Of a DNA stretch of 64,000 bases, positions 23,942-27,101 are shown piece by piece. Position numbers and translations under genes: made by a program. Below the pieces are notes generated by a model. It ran no database searches and was not told the DNA's origin. It worked only from the letters and a program-made list of their open reading frames with translations. Where the stretch lies: NCBI GenBank assembly GCA_024919195.1, contig CP103436.1, positions 186,001 through 250,000 on the forward strand. Reading direction: 5' to 3'. Source of the DNA: Methylophilaceae bacterium LSUCC0717 (lineage in GTDB: Bacteria > Pseudomonadota > Gammaproteobacteria > Burkholderiales > Methylophilaceae). Position 1 is the first letter of the stretch. Each line of letters starts with the position of its first letter.

Positions 23942-24808
23942 TTAGTTTTTTCCTTTGATTAATGTACCTACACCTTGATTGGTTAAAATTTCTAACAACA
24001 ATGCATGCTCAACTCTGCCATCTATGATATGTACGCTATTGACTCCGCCTTTTGCGGCATCCATAGCCGATTCTATTTTAGGTAACATGCCACCACTTAA
24101 TGTGCCATCTTTAAGCAATGCTTCAATATCATTTGGTTTAATTCCTGTAATCAGATTATTTTGGTTATCAAGTACACCTTTGGTGTTAGTCATTAGGATT
24201 AATTTTTCTGCCATGAGAACTTCAGCTAATTTTCCTGCTACAACATCTGCATTAATGTTGTATGTTTTTCCGTCTGAACCAATTCCAATTGGAGCGATTA
24301 CAGGAATAAAGTCACCAGTATCTAGAAAATCGATGAGACTGGGATCGATGGACTCAATTTTACCTACATAACCAAGGTCTATTTTTTTTCCATCTTTATC
24401 TTTATCAAGCTTTGAAGCATGAATGAAGTTTCCATCTTGCCCGGTAAGGCCAACTGCTTTTCCACCATGAATGTTAATTTGATGAACAATTTCTTTATTT
24501 ATTTGACCTCCTAAAATCATTTCCACAACATCCATGGTCTCTTCATCAGTCACTCTTACCCCGTTAATAAATTCACCCTTTTTGCCGATTTTCTCTAGGT
24601 GTTCATTGATCTGTGGCCCACCTCCATGAACAACAACTGGATTCATGCCTACTAATTTTAATAACACTACATCCATAGCAAAAGAACTCTTTAGTTGTTC
24701 ATCTATCATTGCATTGCCACCAAACTTAATCACAATGGTTTTATCAAAAAATTGCTTTATGTAAGGTAATGCTTCACTAAGTATTTTTGCTTTGTCGTTA
24801 GGTGCCAT
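23942..24808 (-). CDS. argB: Acetylglutamate kinase
   Basis: This 288-residue amino-acid kinase phosphorylates N-acetylglutamate, the second step of arginine synthesis. Seen are VIKFGGNAM (phosphate-binding Lys and Gly-Gly), [27 protein letters not shown], the NINADVVAG substrate site and [13 protein letters not shown]. It shares one base with the end of argA (TAATG), so the first two arginine enzymes are probably made from one coupled transcript. Length is normal (family about 260-300). Confidence 0.96.
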
Positions 24809-26310
24809 TATTGCTCCAATTCTTTTAAAAATATTTTTGAATTTCGTTGTGGGGAGTATTCCCTTTTTTTCTCATCTGGTAAATCATTAATGTTGCCTTG
24901 TTTAAAATCATTTTCCATAAACCAGTGGCTAGATTGAGTTGTCATAATAAATGTCTTGTTATTCACTTTTTTACACTCATTTTCACAATATTCTAAAAGT
25001 TTTTTTCCATAACCCATGTTTTGGTAATTTTCATTTATTGCAAAACAGGCAATTTCAGAAATTCCATCATAATGTTTAACTTGGGCACACCCAAGTATCT
25101 TATTATCAAATTCTAAAATGTGGAAATGTTGTATTTCCATCTCTATCTTTTCAAGACTCCTGTCTGCAATGATTTGAGTCTTTATTAGGGGATTAATCAT
25201 TTTTTCAATCACTTTAGCGTCTTGTATTTTGGCAGATCTAAATTTTTCTATTTTTTCTGGTGTAATAACAGTTCCTTGACCCTTATTAGTGAATAATTCC
25301 ATAATTAATGAACCATTAACGTACCTATTAACTAAATGAATCTTTGCTAAGCCCTCTCTTAAACCTTCAGCCGCACCTTCCAATATTGGTAGTGTATTTT
25401 TTTCTATATATTCTGGATGCTCAGATTCTTTGATATGGGATATTAAATTATTCAATTTGATGCTTGTCATTTCAGATATAAATTCACCTCTGATATTTTG
25501 TACCCCATTATTTTCAGTGATATAAATTAATTTTTCAGCCTGAATTGATGAAGCAATCTTGCTTGCCGATGATTCAAAGGATAAATTAAAGATTTCCCCA
25601 ATAGGAGAGTATCCAATAGGGGACATGATGACGATTTCATTGTGGTTAAGTTTTTCAATGATTGCCTCATGATTAATCTCCCTAATAACACCCGTCTGTT
25701 CCATATCAATTCCATCAATAACCCCTATAGGCTTCGCCATAAGAAAATTACCAGATGAAATTTTCAACTCACTTTTAAAGATATTATTGTGGTAAATGTT
25801 GGAAGATAAAGCCGCCTCAATTTTTGTCTTAACCAACCCATTAGCTTCAATAATATGAGGCATCATTTCTGCAGTTGTAATTCTTTGATGCTTATGGAAG
25901 CTTGATTTAATATTATTTTTATCCAATCTTAAGTCGATAAAAGGCCTGATGCCATGAATTAGGATGATTTTAATTCCTAAGGAATGGAGTAGATTAATGT
26001 CCGTACATAAATTGACAAAAGAGTTACTCTCAAGAGCAAAACCGTCAAATGCAATAACGAAAATCTTATTTCTATAATGATGAATATACGGGGCTGCCGA
26101 TCTAAAGGCTGATATAAAGTCGACACTTGATTGTCCCACTAAATTATCAATGGAGACTTTGAAGTAATTTGAATATTTCATTAGAACAGGTAAGGAAGGT
26201 TTCAGTTTTCCTTGTTCTATTTTCGAAAGATTGCCAGGATCTAAATCAAGAATTTGACTGAGGTTGGCAATAGTTAGCTTTCTATCGGTTCTAAGTTGTT
26301 TAAGATTCAT
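24808..26310 (-). CDS. argA: N-acetylglutamate synthase ArgA fused to an N-terminal XRE-type HTH domain
   Basis: Residues about 63-500 match classical ArgA. First comes an amino-acid-kinase-like domain (starting [14 protein letters not shown], with [12 protein letters not shown] and [11 protein letters not shown]). Then a GNAT acetyltransferase domain follows from about residue 355, with [20 protein letters not shown] and the ending [10 protein letters not shown]. It makes N-acetylglutamate from glutamate and acetyl-CoA. Unusually, residues 1-60 form a Cro/C1 (XRE) helix-turn-helix: [18 protein letters not shown], then [21 protein letters not shown]. coli ArgA has 443 residues and starts at the equivalent of residue 63. 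The frame is unbroken and base use is uniform, so the fusion looks genuine. Two palindromes overlap and precede the start codon. Confidence 0.9.
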
Positions 26311-26329
26311 ATTGTATATTTTACAATAT
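26309..26329. promoter_or_regulatory. Palindrome 1 at the argA start codon (putative operator)
   Basis: ATATTGTA and TACAATAT form a perfect 8-bp inverted repeat around a 5-base spacer (TATTT), centred at 26319. The first two bases belong to the argA start codon. Core TTGTA-n5-TACAA is shared with palindrome 2. It has no T tail on either strand in a terminator position, so an operator for a dimeric HTH protein is the better reading. Confidence 0.6.
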
Positions 26330-26339
26330 TTATATTTAT

Positions 26340-26370
26340 TTTTGTATAAATTTATGTAATTTATACAAAA
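26340..26370. promoter_or_regulatory. Palindrome 2 upstream of argA (putative operator)
   Basis: A perfect inverted repeat with 13-bp arms (TTTTGTATAAATT / AATTTATACAAAA) surrounds a 5-base spacer (TATGT), centred at 26355, 36 bp from the centre of palindrome 1. It overlaps the last 10 bases of rsmE and fills most of the rsmE-argA gap. Same TTGTA-n5-TACAA core as palindrome 1. The argA promoter must lie in or beside this pair. Confidence 0.62.
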
Positions 26371-27101
26371 TTATTGGTTAAGGCTAATATCGCGCTTGCA
26401 ATTGATAAGGAGGCGGTCTCAGTTCGCAATACTCTTTTACCCAAAGACAGTGATTTGAAACCAGCATTTTCCGCAACTTTGATTTCAGCTTCTGAAAAAC
26501 CCCCTTCTGGTCCGATTAAAATCTGAAAACTTTTTTTATTTATTAAATCATTGTTTCTTAAAGTTGATAGTGAGAAATCTGTGTAGGGGTTCAAAATTAA
26601 CTTACATGAATGATCATCTTGATTTGTTAACTTATTTAAACTAAGAATTGTTTCATGAATAGTTGGTATTTTTGACCGGCCACTCTGTTCGCATGCAGAG
26701 ATAATGACTTTTTTTAGATGCTCAATTCTGTTTGCTGTTTTGCTTTGAGGAATTTTAAAATTTACTCTTTCGGTATTAATTAAATAGAAATTTTTTATTC
26801 CTAATTCTGTATTTTTTTGAAAAATAAAGTCGAGTTTATCTCTTGAGGTTACTGATTGCAGGATGCTGATATCAATATCTGCTTCAGTAATATTGAGTTT
26901 TTTTTCATTAACAGCAATCTTGACATTTTTTTTATCAATGACAGACACCTCACCATAATAATCATATCCATCACCATTAAATAATATGATCTTGTCTGAT
27001 GGCTTTAATCGCAATGACTTAACAAGGTGTTTTGAGGCATCGTCAGATAGATTGATTTCGCTATGTGCTGAAATAGTGTCTGGATGGTAAAATCTATTCA
27101 T
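26361..27101 (-). CDS. rsmE: 16S rRNA (uracil1498-N3)-methyltransferase RsmE
   Basis: This 246-residue SPOUT-class methyltransferase methylates U1498 of 16S rRNA. It has the N-terminal PUA-like part (MNRFYHPD, HLVKSLRLKPSDKI) and the C-terminal trefoil-knot motifs ISACEQSGRSKIP, ILIGPEGGFSEAEI and SLGKRVLRTETASL. Length is normal (E. coli 243). It lies 50 bp upstream of argA on the same strand and might be co-transcribed, but the operator-like palindromes between them suggest a separate argA promoter. Confidence 0.94.
   Translation of the reverse strand: MNRFYHPDTISAHSEINLSDDASKHLVKSLRLKPSDKIILFNGDGYDYYGEVSVIDKKNVKIAVNEKKLNITEADIDISILQSVTSRDKLDFIFQKNTELGIKNFYLINTERVNFKIPQSKTANRIEHLKKVIISACEQSGRSKIPTIHETILSLNKLTNQDDHSCKLILNPYTDFSLSTLRNNDLINKKSFQILIGPEGGFSEAEIKVAENAGFKSLSLGKRVLRTETASLSIASAILALTNNFV

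Follow-up and report, generated by a model that had tools for sequence, protein, structure and literature searches.

An N-terminal helix-turn-helix in the N-acetylglutamate synthase of Methylophilaceae suggests an enzyme that represses its own gene

The N-acetylglutamate synthase (ArgA) of Methylophilaceae bacterium LSUCC0717 carries a Cro/C1 helix-turn-helix (HTH) domain in front of a complete synthase, and the argA promoters of the family carry palindromes that could serve as its operators. We argue, with a probability of roughly 0.8, that this ArgA is a trigger enzyme that represses its own gene, with arginine most likely acting as co-repressor. The window analysed here is a stretch of 64,000 nucleotides (contig CP103436.1, positions 186,001 to 250,000). 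Since the nearest named relatives of its ArgA are those of beta proteobacterium KB13 (97%), LSUCC0665 (96%) and LSUCC0401 (71%), we take the window to belong to the OM43/KB13 group of Methylophilaceae, a family that includes these coastal bacteria and laboratory methylotrophs.

Domain organization of ArgA

The argA gene (24808..26310, minus strand) starts with ATG and encodes 500 residues; possible internal starts in the same frame are ATG at residue 44 and GTG at residue 58. The matches to profile models describe the protein as an HTH followed by a complete classical N-acetylglutamate synthase, and a catalytic domain joined to a DNA-binding domain in one chain is the architecture of a trigger enzyme. 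That the first 60 residues form an HTH had been proposed in a first-pass annotation of the window, and the domain search supports the proposal: Pfam HTH_3 matches residues 3-55 with 35.8 bits (E 8.3e-9) against a cut-off of 23, HTH_19 and HTH_26 are over their cut-offs too, and HTH_31 is under its own. In the AlphaFold2 model of the monomer, which was built from 91 sequences and has a mean pLDDT of 84, the domain (residues 1-58; 26137..26310, minus strand) shows the five-helix Cro/C1 fold, with helices at residues 2-9, 14-21, 25-32, 40-50 and 54-58 and the recognition helix at about residues 25-32. The pLDDT of the HTH block is 86-92, and 73 at residues 51-60. The domain is present in 91/91 aligned relatives.

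The same annotation had placed the beginning of classical ArgA near residue 63. Consistent with this placement, the synthase models begin immediately after the HTH: TIGR01890 (NCBIfam, amino-acid N-acetyltransferase) covers residues 65-498 with 411 bits (cut-off 202.85), NF003641 (NCBIfam) covers residues 61-498 with 474 bits (cut-off 344), and the alignment to the best PDB match by sequence, the gonococcal N-acetylglutamate synthase (NAGS) 2r8v (245 bits), starts at residue 64. Pfam AA_kinase (residues 82-328, 73.6 bits) and Acetyltransf_1 (residues 392-458, 40.9 bits), both above cut-off, mark the amino-acid-kinase domain (about residues 82-350; 25261..26067, minus strand) and the GNAT acetyltransferase domain (about residues 351-500; 24811..25260, minus strand), and Foldseek ranks 2r8v and the arginine-bound gonococcal NAGS 3d2p at the top for the model. 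Between the HTH and the N-terminal helix of the kinase domain (residues 65-78 in the AlphaFold2 model; 26077..26118, minus strand) lies a joint at residues 60-64 with pLDDT below 50.

According to the review of NAGS (PMC4490483), a lysine and the motif E-(L/I)-(F/M)-(T/S)-x-x-G-x-G-T make up the arginine site. Residues 338-347 of ArgA (25270..25299, minus strand) fit this motif, and K260, located through alignment to the gonococcal structure, would be the lysine. K260, E338, T341, G344, G346 and T347 are invariant in 91/91 aligned relatives, so that the motif of the arginine site is intact. By analogy with the gonococcal enzyme, the ArgA of the window would be a hexamer that is catalytically active and inhibited by arginine.

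Distribution of the fusion, selection and absence of ArgR

An ArgA match is found in 178/187 genomes of Methylophilaceae, and in 119/119 when only those with a completeness of at least 90% and a contamination of no more than 5% are counted. The argA locus was read in 151 of the 178 genomes (27 were left out), and the HTH is in frame in 151/151 loci, with a lowest score of 66 bits against a hidden Markov model (HMM) made from the 91-member HTH alignment; 91 of these loci sit in the model itself, so the independent part of this result is the other 60. Pfam HTH_3 also matches at E <= 0.001 in 91/91 family members scanned. One locus (L174, genome G180) apparently has about 25 extra residues (MHPNPPHNQ...) before the HTH, unlike the other members read.

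Outside the family, the HTH was not found in the samples searched. In a sample of 399 genomes of the order, of which 381 have an ArgA match, the non-family proteins among the matches listed start at query residue 42 or later, mostly at about 60, and their frames are mostly 440-460 residues long. The HTH model scores at least 20 in 0/17 argA loci of other families, several of them near-identical, the one score being 8.0. It also has no match in 20 further loci from other families in the order sample, chosen for frames of at least 500 residues and read over about 700 bases upstream (a similar locus, G198, was left out). In a sample of the class, 88/142 other genomes match ArgA, 18 of the matches beginning at query residues 30-58 and 70 later; judged by match spans only, all 88 leave query residues 1-29 uncovered. 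The simplest reading of this distribution is that a single fusion event took place in the ancestor of Methylophilaceae.

The HTH is under stronger purifying selection than the enzyme domains. In uncorrected Nei-Gojobori counts over the ten pairs of five close genomes, codons 1-60 have a pN/pS of 0.033, as compared with 0.053 in the kinase and 0.093 in the acetyltransferase domain. Because the HTH is in frame in 151/151 loci and codons 1-60 are under such strong purifying selection, an assembly or start-codon artefact does not account for the fusion. In the 91-member alignment R7, L28 and E32 of the HTH are invariant, N27, S29, R30, I31, R33 and G34 are kept in at least 90% of members, and the residues of the recognition helix rank among the most conserved of the domain. 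The ArgA of the window deviates with K30 and Q33.

That the genome would lack the arginine repressor ArgR had been anticipated, and its Pfam model PF01316 indeed has no match in LSUCC0717. PF01316 is above cut-off in 0/187 genomes of Methylophilaceae (two weak sub-threshold matches) and in 0/120 sampled genomes of the order (one weak match), as compared with 8/14 control genomes. PMC5343134 describes ArgR as conserved in gammaproteobacteria and as missing from other classes. Since no sampled genome of the order is over the cut-off, the absence of ArgR probably predates the fusion and is unconnected with small genomes. The first-pass annotation had connected the fusion with genome streamlining, and this connection did not survive. 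Members of the family with genomes of 2 to 3.7 Mb also have the fusion, and on these large genomes, together with the lack of ArgR in the order sample, we reject streamlining as the cause of the fusion.

Palindromes in the argA promoters

The symmetric motif learned from the argA promoters of Methylophilaceae is the palindrome TTGYA-N5-TRCAA. The motif set comprises 149 loci (L123 was dropped for a stretch of N, and L174 for an unclear start), of which 130 bp upstream and 20 bp of coding sequence were scanned, a score of at least 6 being counted as a site. At least one site is found in 147/149 promoters and at least two in 117/149, as compared with 299/1490 and 28/1490 dinucleotide shuffles. 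Since this motif had been trained on the same promoters as those scanned, it was retrained on 108 loci from which the window's genus and one other had been excluded; the seed for both trainings was picked by eye from family promoters. With the held-out motif, every one of the 25 loci of the window's genus has a site and 20/25 have at least two (the other five have one only), against 154 and 8 of 1000 shuffles, and two sites are found in 16/16 loci of the other genus against 11/640 shuffles.

It is scarcely credible that the palindromes are chance by-products of AT-rich promoters when pairs are so much more frequent in the held-out genus than in its shuffles, and when matches scoring at least 12 occur in 140/149 promoters but only six times in 304 kb of coding and downstream sequence of the same loci. 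What speaks for chance is that the region is very AT-rich and that single palindromes are common in shuffles, as the 299 of 1490 indicate. The 17 argA promoters from other families, which all score below 0 with the motif, are also richer in GC (0.41-0.64).

The distances between the two gene-nearest sites, available for 117 loci, fall at 20-22 bp (8 loci), 28-32 (79), 41-43 (13) and 50-52 (12), with four loci at 92 and one at 16. The clusters at about 30, 42 and 51 bp thus appear to be separated by steps of about one helical turn, the counts being of loci rather than of independent events. In the commonest layout one palindrome lies on the -35 and the other after the -10. This layout is illustrated by the 62 loci whose pair is spaced exactly 30 bp: the distal half-site TTGYAT doubles as the -35 and lies 17 bp before a -10 hexamer (T 97%, A 97%, final T 97%), and the proximal site begins two positions past the last base of the -10, over the expected transcription start. 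A -10-like hexamer lies at most 3 bp before the proximal site in 64/75 loci with a spacing of 28-32 bp (background 12.6%), and in 7/12 at 41-43, 7/12 at 50-52, 7/7 at 20-22 and 4/6 others.

Some promoters depart from the simple pair. Two groups have three scored palindromes, and in two cases overall four: they are spaced 29 and 22 bp in L030, L037, L038, L071, L074, L076 and L124, and about 30 bp in L131, L159, L167, L168, L172 and L176. In part of the window's genus the proximal palindrome spans the start codon, where ATGCAA (Met-Gln) forms a half-site, so that codons 1 and 2 of argA seem to be fixed by an operator; this is the case in L021, L024, L026, L027 and L065 and, by reading, in L017, L023, L029, L033, L036 and L070.

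In the window, the region 26300-26375 had been named as the place to look for DNA binding, and both candidate sites lie inside it. The proximal candidate, ATTGTA-AAATA-TACAAT (ATTGTAAAATATACAAT; 26311..26327, not assigned to a strand), was identified by the motif and the genome search and touches the ATG of argA. The distal candidate, TTGTA-TAAAT-TACAT (TTGTATAAATTACAT; 26354..26368, not assigned to a strand), was identified by the family motif 42 bp upstream of the proximal one and extends into the final codons of the preceding gene, which encodes an RNA methyltransferase. By comparison with relatives, TATAAA directly before the proximal site (26329..26334, minus strand) is a possible -10; its -35 partner is weak, and a generic promoter scan of the window does not list the proposed promoter. 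Neither a riboswitch or known RNA leader (26100-26700, up to E 1) nor an intrinsic terminator (26250-26500) was found. The distal site is held in a perfect 27-bp inverted repeat (26342-26368, 11-bp arms and 5-bp loop) that enters the RNA-methyltransferase gene. The second arm of this repeat is decayed in the close relatives L010, L012 and L013, so that the operator part alone of the repeat is conserved.

With at most one mismatch, the proximal pattern is found twice in the 64-kb window against 0.59 expected, and is not rare by itself. Across the 1.27-Mb genome, the only exact match to WTTGYAWWWWWTRCAAW is the proximal site beside argA. With at most one mismatch WTTGYAWWWWWTRCAAW is found at 26 places, as compared with 11 for the reversed control. 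Among the 15 of these places that were read, three are at argA (the two operator candidates and one inside argA), 11 are inside other open reading frames (ORFs) and one (48837) lies 124 bp ahead of an ORF not recognised as an arginine gene. Ten other genomes have the exact pattern at 25 places (one to five each) against 8 for the control, and 19 of these places were read. Seven are at argA, in 6/10 genomes (G041, G066, G108, G114, G164 and G173), eight are within two recurrent genes (5 and 3), three are in other ORFs and one is outside the listed ORFs; among the places read, the remaining four genomes have no exact match at argA.

The two recurrent genes are presumably metW (5) and relA/spoT (3). 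In the metW-like loci L198, L206-L208 and L210 and the relA/spoT-like loci L203, L204 and L211 the palindrome lies within conserved coding sequence, where for example codons for Phe-Ala-Ile-Ile-Ala-Asn spell TTTGCAATTATTGCAAAT, and the one-mismatch site L181 in the genome of the window likewise lies inside a metW-like gene. These recurrences are probably a coding coincidence in which conserved codons make up the palindrome. A wider regulon was considered and rejected on the places read: those away from argA are taken as chance, and the one exact match in LSUCC0717 is at argA.

From the locations of the genome-wide matches, the regulon looks like argA, plus argB where argB follows. The argB gene of the window (N-acetylglutamate kinase, TIGR00761 249 bits against a cut-off of 151; 23942..24808, minus strand) shares the single base 24808 with argA and is probably co-transcribed with it. 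The overlap, from which control of both genes by one operator had been suggested, thus holds in LSUCC0717, and argB lies behind argA in 43 loci of the family. The arrangement may not be general in the family: next to argA, no argB (at least 45% identity) was found in L042-L044 and L047, and the downstream sequence of most other loci is too short to tell.

We then ask whether ArgA itself reads these sites. It is quite improbable, in our view, that another regulator occupies the palindromes and that the HTH serves ArgA only for structure or oligomerisation. The fusion and the operators go together in the loci compared between the family and other families, and the recognition helix is among the best-conserved parts of the domain. 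Moreover, a genome-wide search for HTH_3 in LSUCC0717 returned two matches only, ArgA and a protein that its sequence identifies as ParB-like. Such a role would nevertheless agree with the HTH being kept where sites are weak or absent: 32/149 promoters have fewer than two scored sites, L043 and L116 have none, and in a sub-clade of L040, L041, L083-L085, L087, L090, L091, L095, L097, L116 and their kin the sites are weak or absent and the HTH is intact. These promoters also weigh against autorepression by ArgA, as do the five single-site loci of the window's genus, the four genomes with no exact match at argA and the weak -35 in the window.

Covariation between the domain and the sites gives a further hint. 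Computed over 137 of the 149 loci, the association of residue 36 of the HTH (L or Q) with an operator base (T or C) has an eta-squared of 0.53, and phylogenetic regression over 134 loci gives t of 3.6 (lambda 0.95) or 2.4 (lambda 1). This link goes back to just three parsimony changes and has clear exceptions (L021, L024, L026, L029, L033, L036, L070 and an L077-like clade). Moreover, residue 47, which lies beyond the recognition helix, correlates equally with the operator base (0.57), which points to shared ancestry behind the correlation. A role of residue 36 in operator specificity is therefore suggestive only.

A proposed role for arginine, and relation to known regulators

According to the NAGS review (PMC4490483), the gonococcal enzyme is a D3 hexamer in which the N-terminal helices are interlaced between subunits, and arginine shifts the N-helix, making the ring wider. 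That the protein could combine enzyme, arginine sensor and repressor had been suggested in the first-pass annotation. The scheme that we infer for DNA binding, for the hexamer on DNA, for repression and for gating by arginine, including its direction, is as follows. The C-terminal domains of ArgA would make N-acetylglutamate, and paired N-terminal Cro/C1 domains would bind TTGYA-N5-TRCAA over the argA promoter, block RNA polymerase and lower transcription of argA (argAB in LSUCC0717). HTHs carried directly on such interlaced N-helices would form three two-fold-related pairs, each suited to a single palindrome, so that one hexamer could grip two operators along one face of the DNA. A hexamer that bridges two operators would be expected to let their spacing change in steps of about one helical turn, and bridging is favoured by these steps and by the position of the HTH before the N-helix. 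We hold it at about even odds that a hexameric, arginine-gated ArgA ring with three HTH dimers clamps two helically phased palindromes across -35 and +1, and that it evolved in the ancestor of Methylophilaceae.

Arginine would enter the scheme through the same helix. As the HTH comes right before the N-helix that arginine moves in the gonococcal enzyme, the position of the HTH would depend on arginine, and arginine gating of DNA binding is most likely by this analogy. By reshaping the hexamer, arginine would act as a co-repressor; this is the likelier direction because both controls would then pull the same way.

Two other readings keep ArgA as a repressor and differ in what gates it. In one, the HTH simply steadies the level of ArgA, and arginine inhibits the enzyme and leaves DNA binding indifferent. 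All the evidence from the HTH and the operators fits this reading equally well, and the joint of low pLDDT at residues 60-64 could uncouple the HTH from the enzyme. Moreover, ArgJ is present in the genome (397 bits, cut-off 298), so that ArgA is probably a top-up enzyme for a recycled acetyl pool rather than the sole source of N-acetylglutamate, and a low steady level of it might suffice. We nonetheless regard this reading as rather unlikely: the HTH directly precedes the helix that arginine moves in the structures described in PMC4490483, and the helix-turn steps in spacing suggest a defined multimer instead of free HTHs. In the other reading, the gate is the state of substrate or product (glutamate, acetyl-CoA or N-acetylglutamate), in the manner of trigger enzymes such as PutA, whose gating by substrate is described in PMC8249747 and which acts as a repressor in the absence of that substrate. 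We think it unlikely, since the domain next to the HTH is the one that binds arginine, with ligand residues invariant in 91/91 relatives. We thus retain arginine as the most likely co-repressor of an autorepressing ArgA.

PutA, a proline dehydrogenase and repressor of the put genes, has a ribbon-helix-helix DNA-binding domain, NadR carries a Cro/C1-like HTH, and ArgR is a hexamer gated by arginine that binds tandem palindromes in the promoters of arg genes. The trigger enzymes named in PMC8249747 include PutA, NadR, BirA, PepA and PyrH. Among them PutA resembles ArgA as a DNA-binding enzyme that represses essentially its own locus (PMC8249747), but it is catabolic and substrate-gated, whereas ArgA is biosynthetic, presumably feedback-inhibited, and uses a Cro/C1 domain. 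NadR and BirA are likewise metabolic enzymes that double as regulators, but they are different enzymes with other ligands and quaternary structures and are described as multi-target regulators (PMC8249747), whereas the sites of ArgA seem limited to argA. ArgR would have the function that is proposed here for ArgA; its domains are unrelated, and it controls many arg genes (PMC5343134) where ArgA probably controls one operon.

Classical NAGS (gonococcal 2r8v and 3d2p) shares the kinase-like and GNAT domains and the arginine-site motif with ArgA, but the match to 2r8v starts at residue 64 and there is no HTH in the 17 and 20 loci of other families. An HTH-bearing ArgA was not found in searches of the open-access literature, and neither 'helix-turn-helix' nor 'DNA-binding' occurs in the main text of the NAGS review (PMC4490483). 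Trigger enzymes are a kind already known; what is new here is the paired palindromes in the argA promoters of the family.

If the proposed reading is true, one arginine-binding event would throttle both the enzyme and its gene, and an ArgR-like device would have been derived from an enzyme. It would also show neatly how one domain, added to a sensor ring, can extend allosteric feedback to transcription, and the operators and spacing classes are already mapped. To the question of how Burkholderiales without ArgR set arginine synthesis at the gene level, the HTH-ArgA fusion offers a concrete, testable answer for one whole family.
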